Source: Bacteroidales bacterium
Lineage (GTDB): Bacteria; Bacteroidota; Bacteroidia; Bacteroidales; UBA10428
DNA length: 57,820 nucleotides
Assembly (NCBI GenBank): GCA_016935355.1
Contig: JAFGRC010000056.1
Coordinates: forward strand, 1 to 57,820
Direction: 5' to 3'
The position numbers were made by a program, and so were the translations under genes. Below are positions 3,533-13,615 of this stretch, one piece after another (position 1 is the stretch's first letter; each line of letters starts with the position of its first letter). The notes beneath the pieces were generated by a model. The model did no database searches and had not been told where the DNA came from. It saw only the letters and a list, made by a program, of their open reading frames with translations.

Positions 3533-4864
3533 TTATCTGATAATTGTAAGTGTTATGCTTTCTCCTTTCTCAGATACAACAAGATAAGTGCCCATGGGAA
3601 GAAGTGTTCCGTTTGAATCGTTGCCATCAAAATAAACGGGACCGGTAAGTCTGCGTTTCAAATTACCGTTGCGGTCAAAGATCCTGACGGATCCCTCGAA
3701 ACTGATGAAATACCTGTCATCCAATCCGTCTTCATTGGGCGAAAACACCGGACGGTCGTTCAGGCAGTCTTTTCTTACAACCAGGTTCTGCGGATAACGG
3801 AGTGCACATCCATTATCATTGATGATTTCAAGACTGTAAACACCTTCAGGTAATTCTGTTAAAGTACTGACTTCTGAATTATCAATCAGGTTGGTAACTT
3901 TGTAAGTATAGGGAGGTCTACCGCCTGCAATTTCCTGATCCCGGATTTCGATCCTGCCTTTTTCATAACAATCAGCATCTCCGATTCTTAAATCTACATT
4001 GACAATAGATATCTTTTCAACCTGAAATGTATCGGAATTGCTGCACCCTTTGTCATTTGTAACCCTGTACCATATGGTGGCAGCTTCTGTCAGTCTCACT
4101 TCCTGACTTACAGTACCTGTGGACCACTGAACCGATCTGTACCCATCCGTTACTGAAAGGGTTAGTGCATCCCCGCATATAAACGTATCGGGCATACTGA
4201 TAATCGGCGGGATTTCATTTAAGGTCAGGGTCAGACTGTTGGAGTTTAAGCACCTGTCAGAATTTAATGCAATAGTATAATCTCCTGCTGCACTGGTGAC
4301 CGGATCAATCAATCCTGTTTCAGCATCAATGTTGAGGTTGTTATCAGCTTGAAACAACAGGTTTTCAACCGGATGACTTAATAATGGCCGTATGTCTTTT
4401 TCATTAAGACAATATTCCGGCTTCGGATAACCGACGTTTATCCGTTCATAATCAAGTATATTGATGCTATTGGTTGCCGTGTTTGAAAAAATTAACGGAT
4501 TGTCAGACTCAACCTGTGATATGTGCTCCAGTATGCAATTTTCATTGCTGAGCCAGATCTTCAGGTTCAGTGGATCCCCGGCATTAAATCCGTCCGTTGT
4601 GCCATCAGATCCGTAAACTGTAATCCTGAAATCTGCAGTATCCTTCCAACGTGCCAGTCCGAAACACCTTCCTGCATCATCAAATATCCCGATAAAATCG
4701 CCCTCGGACAGGGATTGCCCGTCAATCCGGGGAATGCAGTTTATGATTAACGGGACAGCATTCAGAGATGCCGAAGGTGTAACCCACGGAACGGTTTGTC
4801 CCGATAACGTGATGAAAGCCGTCAGTCCGGTAACTGTCACGATATGTCGAAGGTTGAACAGCAT
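3533..4864 (-). CDS. Secreted T9SS cargo protein with gliding-motility-type C-terminal domain
   Basis: A 443-residue protein with an N-terminal signal peptide (residues 1-23, ending LSGQT). The middle holds Ig-like and SprB-like modules; one (about 290-360) contains GGRPPYTYKV and ends with paired cysteines. The last 75 residues (369-443) are a CHU_C/gliding-motility C-terminal domain: FSPNEDGLDDRY, then LLPMGTYLVV and a final LTIIR. In Bacteroidota this domain is a type B T9SS sorting signal, so the protein should be exported across the outer membrane. It lies close to a PorP/SprF gene, the usual partner of such cargo. The function of the displayed part is unknown. Its last two domains resemble those of the anti-sigma factor at 7842-9005. 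Confidence 0.85.
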   Translation of the reverse strand: MLFNLRHIVTVTGLTAFITLSGQTVPWVTPSASLNAVPLIINCIPRIDGQSLSEGDFIGIFDDAGRCFGLARWKDTADFRITVYGSDGTTDGFNAGDPLNLKIWLSNENCILEHISQVESDNPLIFSNTATNSINILDYERINVGYPKPEYCLNEKDIRPLLSHPVENLLFQADNNLNIDAETGLIDPVTSAAGDYTIALNSDRCLNSNSLTLTLNEIPPIISMPDTFICGDALTLSVTDGYRSVQWSTGTVSQEVRLTEAATIWYRVTNDKGCSNSDTFQVEKISIVNVDLRIGDADCYEKGRIEIRDQEIAGGRPPYTYKVTNLIDNSEVSTLTELPEGVYSLEIINDNGCALRYPQNLVVRKDCLNDRPVFSPNEDGLDDRYFISFEGSVRIFDRNGNLKRRLTGPVYFDGNDSNGTLLPMGTYLVVSEKGESITLTIIR

Positions 4865-4910: not shown

Positions 4911-5912
4911 TTATTCAACTGAATCGGTAAAGGCTAATTCATTTGACCTTAAACGCAATACCGGATAACCAAAATTGTTATAACGGTATTTATAGCATAC
5001 TGCTCTTTCCAAAGAACCATTATCAAATACAATGGCGGTAACGTTGTTCGGTGATATGACATCCATCCACTCAAACAATGAGGAAACCGGGAGATTGAAA
5101 TCTCTGAAAGGATTTATGGCGTTATCATATTTATAATATACAACCCATTTACGGATCACATCATTTACACTTGCAGCAAGCGGAGCGGGATAATAGAATG
5201 CTTTACGCTCTATATTATTTCTGTTGTCATAATAAAGATGGCAAATGAATTGCAGCACATCCGATTCGTCATGATAACCGGCTATTTTTACGAGTCTGCC
5301 CGACCTGTCATATGTGTAGGTGAAATAATACGGAGGCCGGTCGGGTTCTTTGACGGCTTTTTTCACCATGTTACCCGTTTTATCATAATACAGGTATTCG
5401 ATCTTTTCCCTGTCCTCAGCAGCATTCGGCCAATTCGTCACAATAACGGCCAATTGTCCGGCTGTATTATATTTGTAATTCTTCCTGACCCTCACATTTG
5501 TGAGTTGAGGTGTATTGGTCCGGTCATACCTTAAAATTTCGGCCAGTCGTCCGGCATTGTTATACACAAACCTGTCCTGCATATAAACATATCTTGGGGC
5601 GATATCCGCAGCACTTGTCGTAATTCCGATATTCCTCCTGAAATAATTGATGTTAAACAACCTGCCGTACCGGTCATAGGTATACGTAATGTAATCCTCC
5701 CGGTACTGCGAAACCGACGCATGTGTAATGAGAATACTATCTTCCACAACAATGTCGGGAACAACAACCATAGTTGTGTCTGTGGTTACTGATTTCAGAT
5801 CTCCTGAATGCATCTGATCGTATTCATCATCTGTGAGGTCATCCTGCTCGCATGCAAATGCGAGCATGAATAACAAAGCACTTGCAAATACTTTCATTCT
5901 TTTTGTTTTCAT
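4911..5912 (-). CDS. YD-repeat-like lipoprotein
   Basis: The ATG at 5912 is chosen because it places a clean lipoprotein signal (MKTKRMKVFASALLFMLAFAC) at the N-terminus; the frame opens 37 codons earlier, but that stretch is not signal-like. The 333-residue product contains at least six short repeats of the type YDRYGRLFNINY, YNNAGRLAEILRY, YDRSGRLVKIAGY and YDNRNNIERKAFY, i.e. RHS/YD-like units about 30-45 residues apart. Such repeats form extended beta-structure on the cell surface or in the periplasm. It sits between the T9SS cargo gene and PorP/SprF on the same strand. Function unknown; a role on the cell surface is inferred. Confidence 0.75.
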   Translation of the reverse strand: MKTKRMKVFASALLFMLAFACEQDDLTDDEYDQMHSGDLKSVTTDTTMVVVPDIVVEDSILITHASVSQYREDYITYTYDRYGRLFNINYFRRNIGITTSAADIAPRYVYMQDRFVYNNAGRLAEILRYDRTNTPQLTNVRVRKNYKYNTAGQLAVIVTNWPNAAEDREKIEYLYYDKTGNMVKKAVKEPDRPPYYFTYTYDRSGRLVKIAGYHDESDVLQFICHLYYDNRNNIERKAFYYPAPLAASVNDVIRKWVVYYKYDNAINPFRDFNLPVSSLFEWMDVISPNNVTAIVFDNGSLERAVCYKYRYNNFGYPVLRLRSNELAFTDSVE

Positions 5913-6140
5913 GATTTCATTTTTTTGTTTATAACTGGTTTTCACTTCAACAACCACTACAATTCCGCATATAAAAGGTAACCCACCGGATTTGATTTTT
6001 TTGCTTGTACATATCATGGCCATGCCGGCAGCAAGATCAGCGATTTGTGTTTCCTGTTTTTCTCATCACAGCCCGTTCCGGTTTACCGGTGGCAAAAGAG
6101 TGAAAGATTTATGCCGCCCTGAGCATTTATATTGAAGGAT

Positions 6141-7049
6141 TTAAAAAGAATAACTAAGGGATATTTCCATTGTATTGATGCCAATAGCGGCCTTCTGCAA
6201 CGTTGTAATGTATGAAAGTGTAAGGTCCAGACTGCTCCCGTAAAGGTTCAGATCATTTATTCCAAGCATGGCTGACATACTGGTCCTCCGGTTCCATCCT
6301 ACAACGGAGATGATTTTGCCGAAGAATAGTCCATAAAGAACGGCACGGATACTTGTGGTATTGTAATAAGGCAGTGTTACCAGAATATGAGGTCTGATGA
6401 TCACATCCTCACCCTTAACAACAGCATAGGAAGCAGTGATATTGAAATGAGTGGGAAGGACGGTCTTTTCATCAAGGGGCTGGAAAACACTCCGGAACAA
6501 CTGATTCACGGAAATCCCCACATGAAAATCATCATTGTACAGCCAAAGTCCGGTATTCGCATCGACCTTAAAAACGGAAGATCCTTCCGTTGTAGGAGTG
6601 GCCTTAACTGAGAAATTCATCCCGCCAAAATCGACACCTCCCGAAAACATTAGTCGGCCGGTTACTCTGGTATGAAAAGCATACATGGCATAAAACCGTG
6701 AACGGTTTATATATGCACCCTCATTGTCGTTAAAAAACCTGAAACCAACTATGCTTCTGTTGATTGCATCCGGACTGATCCTGTACGGTACAAAACTGAT
6801 GTTGCAAAAATATGTGGAAATACCCGTGAATCCGGTTACGGGTTTCTGATAGCCGGCGACCACTTCATTGTTGTCGTTTACTCCTATGCTGGAAGGATTT
6901 ACAAGTGGATAGCTGAATATGAACTGGCTGAACTGAACGGGATAGTTCTTGTTTGTCACCTGGGCATTTACATTACAGAAACAACAAAACATATAAAAGA
7001 CGATCGGAAAGTATCCTGCTGATTGAAGCATTACGCCTTTTTTGCTCAT
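6141..7049 (-). CDS. Type IX secretion system outer-membrane protein, PorP/SprF family
   Basis: A 302-residue beta-barrel protein with a signal peptide ending VNAQ (about residue 30). It shows the PorP/SprF layout: a conserved VNPSSIG near the mature N-terminus, FRFFNDNEGAY, a GVDFGG strand, ANTGLWLYND, and a C-terminal strand ending in aromatic YSF. PorP/SprF proteins are outer-membrane partners of T9SS that bind type B cargo such as SprB and help anchor it. Here it lies 3' of the divergent sigma/anti-sigma pair and upstream of a cargo gene bearing the matching C-terminal domain, so the three probably work together. Confidence 0.87.
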   Translation of the reverse strand: MSKKGVMLQSAGYFPIVFYMFCCFCNVNAQVTNKNYPVQFSQFIFSYPLVNPSSIGVNDNNEVVAGYQKPVTGFTGISTYFCNISFVPYRISPDAINRSIVGFRFFNDNEGAYINRSRFYAMYAFHTRVTGRLMFSGGVDFGGMNFSVKATPTTEGSSVFKVDANTGLWLYNDDFHVGISVNQLFRSVFQPLDEKTVLPTHFNITASYAVVKGEDVIIRPHILVTLPYYNTTSIRAVLYGLFFGKIISVVGWNRRTSMSAMLGINDLNLYGSSLDLTLSYITTLQKAAIGINTMEISLSYSF

Positions 7050-7269
7050 CAGATCAGAAATTAATATCTGAAATTAATAATTACGCTAATATAATCAACC
7101 CTTTATACGCTTCATAATTTTTTCCTCTGTTTGTCTTCTTTTTATCTTCAGGATGGTTCACCTTTTGAATAATTTAACCTGTGAATATGATCCGGGTTAA
7201 TTATTTCTTGCTAATTTGGGTTACCTTTTCAACAATGAACTGAAGATACCTAAAAGTCTTTATCAGAAA

Positions 7270-7845
7270 ATGGGATATTCCGACAATGAAATCATAAAAG
7301 CCATTGAATCGGGTAAAGACAGGGATGTATTGAAATACCTGTACAAAATCCATTTTCCAAAAGTAAAGAAATACATCATGAACCATTCGGGGGACAGCGA
7401 TACGGCATTCGATGTTTTTCAGGACAGCATTGTGGTCTTTTACAAATATGTAAAAGAAAAGAAATTCGATACGGCTTATGAAACAGGAGCTTTTATCTTC
7501 ACGGTAAGCAAAAATATCTGGCTGAACAAAGTACAAAAGGATAAGAGAAATGTGGCTTTACCTGAATATGCAGAATTCAGGGATGACGGCCAAAGCATCA
7601 TGGATCAGCTGATCACCAGAGAGCGCGAAAAAATGGTTTCTGATATTCTGAGGCAACTTGGGGAAAAATGCGAGAAACTGCTGCAATATTCGATCTTTTA
7701 TAGACTGAGAAATGCGGAAATATGCGAAAGAATGGGATTCAGTACTGAAAACGCCGTGAAAACAAGAAAGTACAAATGCATGCAAAAGCTCATATCGATC
7801 GTTGAAAAAAGTCCCTCTTTAAAAAAGGCTTTGCAGGAATTATGA
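7270..7845 (+). CDS. ECF-type RNA polymerase sigma factor
   Basis: The ATG at 7270 is preferred; a TTG at 7216 would add 18 residues. The 191-residue product has region 2 (about 25-90: FDVFQDSIVVFYKYV, FIFTVSKNIWLNK) and region 4 (about 130-185: KCEKLLQYS, RNAEICERMGFS, VKTRKYKCMQKL), with a helix-turn-helix in the latter. It directs core RNA polymerase to a specific regulon. Its stop overlaps the start of the anti-sigma gene by 4 bases (ATGA), so the two are translationally coupled. It is divergent from the PorP/SprF gene, which is a candidate target. Confidence 0.88.
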   Translation: MGYSDNEIIKAIESGKDRDVLKYLYKIHFPKVKKYIMNHSGDSDTAFDVFQDSIVVFYKYVKEKKFDTAYETGAFIFTVSKNIWLNKVQKDKRNVALPEYAEFRDDGQSIMDQLITREREKMVSDILRQLGEKCEKLLQYSIFYRLRNAEICERMGFSTENAVKTRKYKCMQKLISIVEKSPSLKKALQEL

Positions 7846-9005
7846 AAAATGAAATCGAAATAAACGAACGGATTGATTCCTACCTCAAAGGGATACTTGC
7901 TGAGGATGAGAAAATGGTCTTTGAACTGCGAATGCAGGAAGATCCTTCCCTTGCCCGGCAGGTTGAGCTGCACAGACAGTTGCATGATGTGATCTCAGAC
8001 GGCGTGTATCTTGATCTTAAAAATGCGCTTAAAACAATTCACCTGAAGAAAATCAGCACATCAGGAAAGATCAGAAGAATCACCGGTTATGGAAGCGGGG
8101 GACTGATCATCGGACTTGCCGTTTTTCTGGCGATCAAAAACGGAACCGATAATAGAAATTCTTTCAGGGAAAGTCCGGTTGTCCCTTACAGAAAAACAGC
8201 AACTGATACCTTGGAAAGAGCAGTTGCTGAAAATGATAATCCTAATGCCGGCACGGAAGTCACGGTTCCGTCAGGTGATAATATTCTTGTCCTTGCAACG
8301 GATGCTGATGCTTTACAGCCGGTTACCATAACACAGGATGCTCATGGTGAAACCGGTATGACCGGCACCCTTTCATCTTCAACAGATGACGCCGACTCAA
8401 CCCTGATCCATAGACCGATACCGGTAGTTGAAGTTCCAGAGTATGAACCGGATCAGGATGGTGACCTGAAATCTGAAGAAGAAATGACAATTGACTGCAG
8501 CCAAATAAATATTGAGGCCGTTTTCACCAGTCATTCAAGCTGCAACAATAAACCTACCGGCGTCATTGAAATTGATGCACAATCAATTAAAGGTGGCGAA
8601 CCCCCATATGTTTTCTCCCTCAATCAGAAAACGTTCGCCGATACCTTAATTTTTGCTTCGCTTTCCCCCGGAAGCTACCCTGTTTATGCAAAGGATGCAC
8701 ATGATTGCGCCAACCGGCTGGGAATTGCAATCATAGATTCTGAGGACTGTACCTACCAGGATATATTTGCACCCCTAAAAGGTGAAATATGGTCCGTTCC
8801 GGTTGAACGGGATAAAGCGGGCACATTATTGATCTATTCAAAAGCCGGAATTGTGGTTTACAGCATCCCTGTGAGCGGAAATGATCCGGTTGTCTGGAAC
8901 GGAGAAACGGTAAATGGTCAAATGCTTCCCATGGGACTGTACCAGTTTGAGATCCGTTACAGCGACGGAACATCATTCACCGGTAATGTCACAATAGTGA
9001 GATAA
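7842..9005 (+). CDS. Membrane anti-sigma factor fused to an SprB-like repeat and T9SS-type C-terminal domain
   Basis: A 387-residue protein with three parts. Residues 1-75 are a small helical, zinc-free domain typical of Bacteroidota anti-sigma factors (ERIDSYLKGILAEDE, FELRMQEDP). One membrane segment spans about 83-98. An acidic, Thr/Ser-rich linker follows, then an SprB-like module at about 220-305 (GGEPPYVFSL, ending in paired Cys) and a CHU_C/gliding-motility-like domain at 306-387 (QMLPMGLYQFEI, ending VTIVR). The last two parts resemble those of the cargo protein at 3533-4864. The protein should hold the sigma factor inside and expose a cargo-like domain to the periplasm. That it senses T9SS state is an inference. 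Confidence 0.8.
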   Translation: MKNEIEINERIDSYLKGILAEDEKMVFELRMQEDPSLARQVELHRQLHDVISDGVYLDLKNALKTIHLKKISTSGKIRRITGYGSGGLIIGLAVFLAIKNGTDNRNSFRESPVVPYRKTATDTLERAVAENDNPNAGTEVTVPSGDNILVLATDADALQPVTITQDAHGETGMTGTLSSSTDDADSTLIHRPIPVVEVPEYEPDQDGDLKSEEEMTIDCSQINIEAVFTSHSSCNNKPTGVIEIDAQSIKGGEPPYVFSLNQKTFADTLIFASLSPGSYPVYAKDAHDCANRLGIAIIDSEDCTYQDIFAPLKGEIWSVPVERDKAGTLLIYSKAGIVVYSIPVSGNDPVVWNGETVNGQMLPMGLYQFEIRYSDGTSFTGNVTIVR

Positions 9006-11325: not shown

Positions 11326-12501
11326 TTGCGCTTTTTTCTTTATTTTGCGGGCGTTTTGTTGTTGCTTGTGTATCAGAACCGGATAAGCATCCTGTTGTTT
11401 TCAATCCTTGAAGGGATCCTGCTTTTGTTTGCACAATCACCTGAGCAGGTAAGTATAGAAGCATGGGTGACAAATCCCGACCGGAGTGATCTGTTCAGCA
11501 AACAGGAAACAAATATACAGTTCAATAATAGTGGACGCCGCAGAGGAATCGGATCTGTCATTACCATTGACGATGGTATAAAAATGCAGTCAGTCGATGG
11601 TTTTGAATTTGCATTGACCGGCGGGAGTGCCTGGCTTATGATGAATATGCATCCTGCTGAGCGGATGAAACTGATTCATGAACTGTTCAGGATGGATGGC
11701 AATAATATAGGTGTCAGCTATGTAAGCCTGATCATAGGTGCTTCCGATCTGAACAATTTTGTATTTTCTTACAACGATCTGGGAGATAGCGAAACAGAAC
11801 CAAACCTTGATAAATTTAACCTGTCCCAGGATCGATTATCCTCTTACCATACTCAATGATCCTGAAGCCGTAAAAATATGTTGACGGATTCGCTTTCCAC
11901 CATTACGGCGGAGCATTAAGCGCGATGACGATCATGCATAATGCCCGTCCGGATAAGAATCTGTATTTTACAGAACAGATGGTGACCGAACAATCCGGCA
12001 GTACAACAATCGGCATTGCAGCTCGTGTTAAACAACTGATTGTTGGTGCAATGGGGAATTGGAGTAAAAATGTGATATTGTGGAACCTGGCCGCTGATCC
12101 GCTGAATGGTCCGCATACAGACAACGGTGGCTGCACCATGTGCCAGGGAGCTGTTACAATCGATCAGGACAGTATTACCAGAAACCTTGCCTATTATACG
12201 ATTGCTCATGCATCAAAATTTGTCATACCCGGATCAGTCAGGATTCAATCAACCGGGAATGGTGATATGGCGGTTGAACTGACCACAGATGAGGAATCCC
12301 AGGATGCCGTTGCAATGCGCGTAGCAGTAACCCGTAACTATGATTTTTTACCCAATGTGGCTTTCCTGACACCTGGAGGCAAAATTGTATTGATTGTTGC
12401 AAATGACACTTTTAATACAAATTCATTTATTATTCATCATGACGGAAAGGTACGCAAATATAAGACTCAGTCCAGGTGCGGCAGGTACGTATATCTGGTA
12501 A
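11326..12501 (+). pseudogene. GH30-type glucosidase/beta-1,6-glucanase relic
   Basis: The N-terminal part (11326-11838) reads as a GH30_3-like enzyme: a signal-like segment, TNPDRSDLF, VDGFEFALTGGSAWLM, GNNIGVSYVSLIIGASDLNN and FSYNDLGDSE. The frame then shifts. The next matching piece is DYPLTILNDPEAVK, one base out of frame in an A-run, followed by DGFAFHHYGGALSAM, RPDKNLYFTEQ (nucleophile region) and the beta-sandwich (VILWNLAADPLNGPHT, TIAHASKFVIPGSVRI). A last slip before the end restores PGAAGTYIW with a stop at 12499-12501. About 120 residues carrying the acid/base NE motif are missing. The gene cannot make active enzyme. Length and motif order are from family knowledge. Confidence 0.87.
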
Positions 12502-12571
12502 TTTCACTTTTTGTTGTTGCGCATCTCAAGCATCTTTTATTAAATTACGGAACTGAATCCGGCTTTCTTCT

Positions 12572-13615
12572 TTATTGTTCGCCTTTCCTTCCGAAAAAGA
12601 TCAGTCCCAGTTTGAAATTCACAAATGATGCCTGTATGGGCGTTCTTTGAACGAACAATCCTGCCCCCAGGTTAACTGCCAGCCTGTCGGAAACGTTCCG
12701 GTAAATTCCTGCTCCCGGATTGATGAACAATCCGGGTTCCTTCAGATTTTCGAAAACGAAAAGCAACCCGCCATCAGCAAAAAAATACGGTATGAAACCG
12801 GTCTCCTTTAAATTATATCGAAAATCCAGATAGACAGGAGCCGCCATTCCACCGTTATACGCATTCAGTCCGACACCGATCCCGGTCGCAAACCTTCTGT
12901 TGATGACATAACCGTTGATCATGTTGATGCTGTAGAAATGATGTGTGTATGGCACTGATATGATCTTCAAACCCGGAGCAGCTCCTATGTCGGTGTTGTT
13001 AAAATATCCGGACACGTCTTCTTCCTTTCTCAAACGCTCGGCTTCAGCCATTGCAGCAGAATCGGCAACAATCCTTTCATTCTGGTCACCGATTTTTTCA
13101 GCCAGCATGGTATTCGTTGTATTGATTTCCTGAAGCCGGACCTGCAAATCCTCAATCTGCGAATTTAAAGTATCAACCCTGGTGCTCAGTGTTTCATTTT
13201 CTGACAAATATTTATCGATTATGGTTTGAAGTTCTGCATTTTCACTCTTGAACTTCATGATCTGCTGATTGTTGGAAGCGTTAAGAGCCGAGAGCCTGGC
13301 GTTCCGCTCCAGGGCGGATTGCAGATCCGTCCCGAGGATTTCATTACGCAACATCAGAGTATCATTATTGAATTGAAAGGTCCTGATCTCATTTGACAGG
13401 GAATCCCGTTCCCTCTTATAGGCAGTTTCTGTCTCACTGAGTTTCAGTTCCAGATCATTCACCTGGTTATTTTTACCTGCCAGCAGAATGGCCAAAGCGA
13501 TCAGACCACCGCCGGCGACTGCTCCTCCAAACCACCAGAAAAAAGGAATGGCCCTCCTCTTTTCTTTCTGTTTATCCTGATTATTTACAGTATCCATATC
13601 TAGTGATTTATTCAT
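12572..13615 (-). CDS. Inner-membrane-anchored coiled-coil protein with a C-terminal barrel-like domain
   Basis: A 347-residue protein. After a basic cytoplasmic stub, one membrane helix lies at about 24-46 (FFWWFGGAVAGGGLIALAIL). Residues about 50-195 form a long heptad-rich coiled coil (LELKLSETETAYKRERDSL, LNSQIEDLQVRLQEINTT). Residues about 205-347 are rich in alternating aromatic/glycine strands (GVGLNAYNGGMAAPVYLDFR, FFADGGLLFVFE, LGLIFFG) like an outer-membrane beta-barrel or a porin-like fold. It could bridge inner and outer membrane. No named family was recognised. It stands alone between the GH30 relic and the GMP synthase subunit. Confidence 0.7.
   Translation of the reverse strand: MNKSLDMDTVNNQDKQKEKRRAIPFFWWFGGAVAGGGLIALAILLAGKNNQVNDLELKLSETETAYKRERDSLSNEIRTFQFNNDTLMLRNEILGTDLQSALERNARLSALNASNNQQIMKFKSENAELQTIIDKYLSENETLSTRVDTLNSQIEDLQVRLQEINTTNTMLAEKIGDQNERIVADSAAMAEAERLRKEEDVSGYFNNTDIGAAPGLKIISVPYTHHFYSINMINGYVINRRFATGIGVGLNAYNGGMAAPVYLDFRYNLKETGFIPYFFADGGLLFVFENLKEPGLFINPGAGIYRNVSDRLAVNLGAGLFVQRTPIQASFVNFKLGLIFFGRKGEQ

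Follow-up and report, generated by a model that had tools for sequence, protein, structure and literature searches.

The window, that is, the whole stretch of 57,820 nucleotides that was analysed, includes an ECF sigma factor gene on the plus strand (7270..7845; 191 aa), which matches TIGR02937 (E 5e-17, above cut-off) and TIGR02985 (E 4e-17). Its start codon, ATG at 7270, agrees with the position of an upstream promoter-like motif and with the start codons of relatives. The next gene encodes an anti-sigma factor of 387 aa with a type IX secretion system (T9SS) cargo-like C-terminus (7842..9005, plus strand), whose full length is kept in 12 genomes. The anti-sigma start codon sits in a 4-bp ATGA overlap with the end of the sigma ORF at 7845, just as an earlier inspection of the DNA (the sequence-only reading) had described. 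On the minus strand, a PorP/SprF-family outer-membrane shuttle is encoded at 6141..7049 (PF11751 and TIGR03519, E ~1e-28; TIGR03519 above cut-off). A DUF4595-like lipoprotein gene is at 4911..5906 (minus strand; PF15283 E 1e-6, below gathering). The cargo gene, here called Y, is at 3533..4864 (minus strand), and its product consists of a signal peptide, Ig-like modules, an SprB-like module and a type B-like C-terminal domain (CTD), which matches CHU_C slightly under gathering (E 2e-5). The sequence-only reading had placed PorP/SprF between the cargo and the anti-sigma factor; this position holds (TIGR03519 E 1e-28), and the lipoprotein gene lies in addition between cargo and porP. No FecR domain and no STN/TonB receptor was found by Pfam among the locus genes.

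Elsewhere in the window, at 11326-12650 on the plus strand, two ORFs are present in different frames. The second ends in the GH30 C-terminal domain PF17189, and the first is GH30-like by eye, without a Pfam match. Together they probably represent one gene of glycosyl hydrolase family 30 that is frameshifted or decayed.

The anti-sigma factor begins with a cytoplasmic anti-sigma domain (residues 1-79; 7842..8078, plus strand, as are all parts of this gene), which is helical in the AF2 model. The relative at locus L161 matches the anti-sigma profile NF052375 at E 2e-6, under cut-off. A transmembrane helix follows (residues 80-98; 8079..8135), a hydrophobic stretch at the same place in 12/12 proteins; the helix claimed earlier at 83-98 is confirmed, at about 80-98. 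Five net positive charges precede it, and from this charge the helix is predicted to lie N-in/C-out. A Sec signal peptide is absent by hydropathy and inspection, and the internal anchor at 80-98 stands in its place. Residues 99-216 (8136..8489) constitute a disordered periplasmic tether, with AF2 pLDDT <50 at 100-213. The tether is 115.6 +/- 5.7 aa long in the 12 proteins, of low complexity and hardly conserved in sequence. Next is an SprB-like Ig module (8490..8750; SprB PF13573 E 0.0057) with the cysteines C234, C289 and C303; this three-cysteine spacing is kept in 12/12 anti-sigma proteins and also in cargo Y. The last part is a type B-CTD-like Ig domain (8751..9002) that ends in VTIVR, assigned from hhalign to the cargo, motif alignment and Foldseek. 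The AF2 model shows the two Ig-like modules as strands at 228-298 and 327-385. The C-terminus is a short cargo-like strand whose last residue is R or K in 12/12.

The alignment with cargo Y is significant. BLASTP aligns anti-sigma 240-367 with Y 303-427 over both modules at 27% identity (E 3e-9), and hhalign gives 99.1% (E 5.7e-19), reaching the last residue of both proteins. The claim that the cargo at 3533-4864 ends in the same two modules is confirmed by these alignments. By the curated profiles, the last module is weak. The sole Pfam match above gathering is FlgD_ig PF13860 at anti-sigma 326-375 (E 1e-6). The matches to CHU_C (E 0.0015, 19.1 of 27 bits), to TIGR04131 (E 5e-4, 20.1 of 35 bits) and to SprB are all under the curated cut-offs. 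The naming of the modules as SprB-like and cargo-like in the sequence-only reading is backed by hhalign, but not by the curated T9SS models. In Foldseek, the best matches are to PorU 6za2, with PorZ 5m11 in the top ten and FlgD further down; the low whole-model TM-scores are due to the disordered tether. The anti-sigma CTD is homologous to the T9SS cargo C-terminus. The recurrence of the fusion and its neighbourhood in 12 genomes indicates that the match is not due to chance.

The likeness to cargo is incomplete at one conserved site. Where the cargo has F-[ST]-P-N-x-D, the anti-sigma CTD has F-A-P-x-x-G-E-x-W-x-x-P, and across the anti-sigma CTDs F-x-P-x-x-(G)E-x-W-x-x-P or (Y)W-E is found at this place. 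PNxD is present in 0/12 anti-sigma CTDs versus 69/89 other CTDs collected, a count that ignores relatedness. The proposed imitation of a cargo C-terminus therefore stands as homology, but without the F[ST]PNxD motif of the cargo. In Flavobacterium johnsoniae, mutating any of five type B motifs stops the secretion of an SprB-CTD fusion (PMC12618676), and PNxD is presumably one of these five. Because PNxD is missing, the idea that the tail is handled or cleaved like cargo is doubtful. The scores under the CHU_C and TIGR04131 cut-offs, together with the absence of PNxD in 12/12, suggest that the CTD is probably a docking or decoy domain and not an exportable signal.

In the CTD tree, the family's anti-sigma rows cluster by themselves, 10 of 11 Y rows group together (99), and generic cargo makes up a third cluster. 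The tree has few columns and long branches on the L158 and L159 rows, so it was used for coarse grouping only. The separate anti-sigma cluster implies that the tail is a variant of old standing, maintained on its own. It also led to rejection of the idea that the tail was copied recently from the neighbouring cargo; moreover, the closest cargo in the host genome by E-value is on contig C6, not in the neighbourhood. That cargo (L044:3-3719) is a long SprB-repeat protein, with 925 aa visible, followed by its own porP, and by E-value no other cargo tail in the genome comes closer to that of the anti-sigma factor.

Full-length relatives of the anti-sigma factor were observed in 10/23 genomes of the host's uncultured Bacteroidales family. 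Outside the family, 392 genomes were sampled at the level of the order, 395 at that of the class and 395 at that of the phylum; two full-length matches were observed, G438 and G706, which belong to two other families of the class. These large searches scored just the few top candidates of each genome and may have passed over members that are rarer or more diverged. The survey for this fusion beside ECF genes, suggested by the sequence-only reading, thus returned 12 genomes from three families, and in all of them the order of anti-sigma domain, transmembrane helix, tether, SprB module and cargo-like end is kept. Short CTD ORFs in other families yielded no further fusions; they all looked like cargo or contig-end fragments with canonical motifs. 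No description of an anti-sigma/CTD fusion was found in the open-access literature searched.

A PorP/SprF gene, intact or partial, adjoins the fusion in 12/12 loci; this count includes one gene that is partial by rearrangement, one cut by a contig end and one locus split over two contigs. In the home family, porP/sprF is divergent from sigma and is followed by a variable surface gene and then by Y. In most other carriers, the variable slot contains an adhesin with PKD repeats and a type A T9SS tail (PKD_4 and Por_Secre_tail). The window has the DUF4595-like lipoprotein there, and G018 has a similar protein. In G006, sigma, porP and Y are on one contig and the anti-sigma gene on another. In G438 and G706, an apparent operon with all genes in one direction comprises porP, the gene of a Y-like CTD protein, sigma and anti-sigma. 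Y is present at 10/12 fusion loci, the exceptions being G001, which is rearranged, and G021, whose contig ends inside porP. Orthologs of Y have variable N-terminal domains and a conserved end, and they co-occur with the anti-sigma fusion: of the nine family genomes with Y, all but G015 have the fusion, and in G015 the Y gene lies at the end of its contig (Fisher p 7e-4, uncorrected for relatedness). A link between the fusion and PorP/SprF plus CTD cargo is supported in three families.

At the rearranged locus of G001 (L034:6821-8422, minus strand), porP is cut after ~190 residues and joined in frame to a TonB-receptor-like C-terminal sequence. SusD genes surround the joined porP; this is either a rearrangement or an assembly join.

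The fusion is not found mostly in genomes without T9SS genes, a distribution that would have counted against sensing of the secretion system. PorU is matched in 23/23 family genomes and SprA (SprA_N) in 20/23, including all fusion carriers. T9SS presence alone was dropped as evidence; since genomes without the fusion also have T9SS, its presence shows only that the model is possible. PorP/SprF paralogs number 7-22 per genome, and the host genome has ten besides the PorP of this locus.

A promoter-like motif of ~27 bp, GGTTACTTTTT-N11-TGTAG, precedes the sigma gene in all ten carriers of the family, with a few mismatches in some. For this count, G010 and G021, which have misplaced start codons, and G006, which has the split locus, were read by hand. 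In the window, GGTTACcTTTT-N11-tGaAG is located before the ECF sigma gene (7219..7245, plus strand; PWM score 24.0), and GGTTACCTTTT-N11-TGTAG before the lipoprotein and cargo genes (5957..5983, minus strand; PWM score 32.6). Most loci have the motif ahead of the surface-protein/Y genes; besides the window, it is found before the surface gene in L033, L035, L036, L039 and L040. In L036 and L039 it is just inside the mechanically called ORF, which is taken to be a start-codon error. At the distant loci, it is located before porP (L160, L161) and before Y (L160), and it heads the porP-Y-sigma-anti-sigma cluster in two distant carriers. In the home family, porP itself has no motif site.

The motif is concentrated at these loci, with 18 matches in ~0.22 Mb of loci versus 11 in 1.92 Mb of shuffled DNA. 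One of the 18 matches (L037, 19722) is away from sigma, cargo and porP genes. The weight matrix (25 bits, threshold 13) was built from the motif sites. It was applied to 294 kb from the host, roughly one tenth of its genome, consisting of stretches around T9SS and PorP genes, including sprA and porU. At PWM >=13, it recovered the two locus sites and one weak match of 13.3; as the matrix was trained on both locus sites, the informative part is the absence of other matches. No convincing motif was seen in the sampled stretches of sprA, porU and other porP genes, which thus gave no sign that this sigma factor controls the core T9SS genes. The motif is read as a putative promoter of the ECF sigma factor, pointing to autoregulation and control of surface cargo. 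Because the motif is shared, it is very likely that the sigma factor controls the cargo genes.

The N-terminus of the anti-sigma factor recurs with other tails. Homologous N-termini lie beside related ECF genes, with TPR or other tails. Anti-sigma-like proteins with TPR or TPR-like periplasmic tails were observed in L042, L045, L047, L175-L177, L179 and L181, and they are related via the N-terminal domain or the sigma partner. They are a family with exchangeable sensor domains. No neighbour of the TPR-tailed or other-tailed loci matched the PorP profile of the locus. In L042 and L045, a histidine-kinase gene is next after the anti-sigma-like gene.

A second build is seen in G576 and G698, where an anti-sigma protein with two PKD domains and CHU_C is encoded beside a related ECF sigma gene (L180:6041-7450, minus strand; L183:1857-3278, plus strand). 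Here CHU_C is above gathering (E 5e-9 and 2e-8). It is a different build of the same idea. Housekeeping genes border these fusions on one flank, the contig ends on the opposite flank, and no porP was observed beside them within the short contigs available. Pseudo-cargo anti-sigma factors may have arisen at least twice, once as the SprB-CTD form in three families and once as the PKD-CHU_C form in another family.

The domain homology, the architecture, the synteny and the shared promoter-like motif are direct observations. A pseudo-cargo on a periplasm-spanning leash, encoded beside a shuttle and controlling cargo, is most simply a shuttle sensor. The preferred explanation, at nearly an even chance, is that the anti-sigma factor listens across the periplasm to its cognate PorP/SprF, senses the occupancy of the shuttle and releases the sigma factor accordingly. 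Its N-terminus would hold the sigma factor at the inner membrane. The tether of ~116 residues, which would be long enough to cross the periplasm, would carry the SprB-CTD pair, and the pair would dock on the neighbouring PorP/SprF, or on this protein assembled with SprA, where cargo Y would also bind. Whether the receptor is free or filled with cargo would change the tension on the tether or its exposure. The released sigma factor would transcribe its own operon and the surface-protein and Y genes, and in the two distant families also porP. The outcome of the circuit would be a cargo supply matched to a stoichiometric shuttle. We infer the sigma binding, the docking on PorP, the release step and the direction of the response.

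Published work provides the background for this reading. Type B CTDs need a cognate PorP/SprF shuttle, in amounts taken to be stoichiometric (PMC12618676). PorP binds a type B CTD protein (PMC9143113), and type B substrates stay bound to their own shuttle (PMC9143113, PMC12618676). The same sources place the binding between shuttle and CTD after translocation, on the outer side (PMC12618676, PMC9143113). The anti-sigma CTD, with its inner-membrane anchor, would have to bind on the periplasmic side or thread through SprA. Points against the listener model are this outer-side binding, the absence of PNxD, the dependence of secretion in F. johnsoniae on every one of five type B motifs, the scores of the curated type B models under their cut-offs, and the second build without a porP neighbour on its short contigs. 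The more general claim, that there is a class of anti-sigma factors in which a type B-like pseudo-cargo couples transcription of the cargo operon to PorP/SprF occupancy by substrate mimicry, is tentative and somewhat short of an even chance.

Among the alternatives, it is rather unlikely that the locus is a surface signalling system of the FecA/FecR kind. PorP, the surface protein Y and the adhesin would then be a receptor for a ligand or a surface outside the cell, and the C-terminus of the anti-sigma factor would listen to them while secretion status stays unread. The variable N-terminal domains and conserved end of Y fit this alternative, as does the co-regulated slot, which is filled by either a PKD adhesin or a lipoprotein. 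However, neither an STN/TonB receptor nor a FecR domain was found among the locus genes, there is no known ligand, and the same anatomy suits the occupancy model just as well.

It is unlikely that the domain is an ordinary Ig-like sensor, periplasmic or ligand-binding, related to T9SS tails in fold only and without T9SS handling. FlgD_ig, the one domain above Pfam gathering, and the absence of PNxD in 12/12 speak for such a sensor, as do the TPR and unknown-domain tails, which are freely swapped among the anti-sigma proteins of the family. Against it, the match to the type B-like cargo takes in both modules, in unchanged order, and runs through to the C-terminal residue, the link with porP and CTD cargo is constant in three families, and the promoter-like motif is shared. 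It is very improbable that the anti-sigma factor is a leashed T9SS substrate, whose tail is pulled, or cleaved by the PorU sortase or another protease, so that its activity is destroyed or restored with the state of the translocon: the cargo-like ending in 12/12, a tether long enough for the outer membrane and PorU in the family genomes agree with it, but PNxD is missing, secretion in F. johnsoniae depends on all five type B motifs (PMC12618676), PorP and not the sortase route keeps type B cargo anchored (PMC9143113), and the protein has no signal peptide.

The shuttle-listening anti-sigma factor can be compared with known systems. There are tethered anti-sigma factors that extend as far as the outer membrane; Dma, a precedent, is held to span both membranes (PMC13088901). 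Like the protein here, Dma1 and Dma2 (thetaiotaomicron; PMC13088901) have an anti-sigma domain, one transmembrane helix, a long disordered tether and an outer-membrane-directed C-terminus, and their genes accompany that of an ECF sigma factor. The C-terminus of Dma is a beta-barrel of its own; that of the anti-sigma factor here is a T9SS cargo-like pair of Ig modules, and the barrel, PorP/SprF, is a separate protein encoded beside it. With SprB/SprF and PG1035/PorP (PMC9143113, PMC12618676) the anti-sigma factor shares the SprB-like module, the type B-like CTD at the C-terminus and the adjacent PorP/SprF. Unlike type B substrates, it has an inner-membrane anchor and an anti-sigma domain, no signal peptide, a conserved W/P variant in place of PNxD, and scores under the TIGR04131 and CHU_C cut-offs. 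The PorA-PorXY-SigP system of Porphyromonas gingivalis also has a CTD-bearing protein upstream of an ECF sigma factor, SigP, which serves T9SS genes (PMC7712824). PorA, however, is a surface protein acting via a two-component system, without an anti-sigma/CTD fusion (PMC7712824). FecR/FecA is similar in that an inner-membrane anti-sigma factor has a periplasmic part that would contact an outer-membrane protein, but it differs in the FecR domain and the TonB/STN receptor, for which no match was found among the locus genes here.

On genomic grounds, there is good support for a sigma circuit linked to T9SS cargo. The locus would be a compact portable circuit, composed of a sigma factor, a cargo-tailed anti-sigma factor, a shuttle, a cargo and a promoter motif of ~27 bp. 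For anti-sigma factors reaching the outer membrane, it would add a fused ligand of a separate barrel to the fused barrel known from Dma. The circuit bears on how Bacteroidota match type B adhesins to dedicated PorP/SprF shuttles and on how they sense the outer-membrane machinery of T9SS, and it is directly testable in a tractable flavobacterium.
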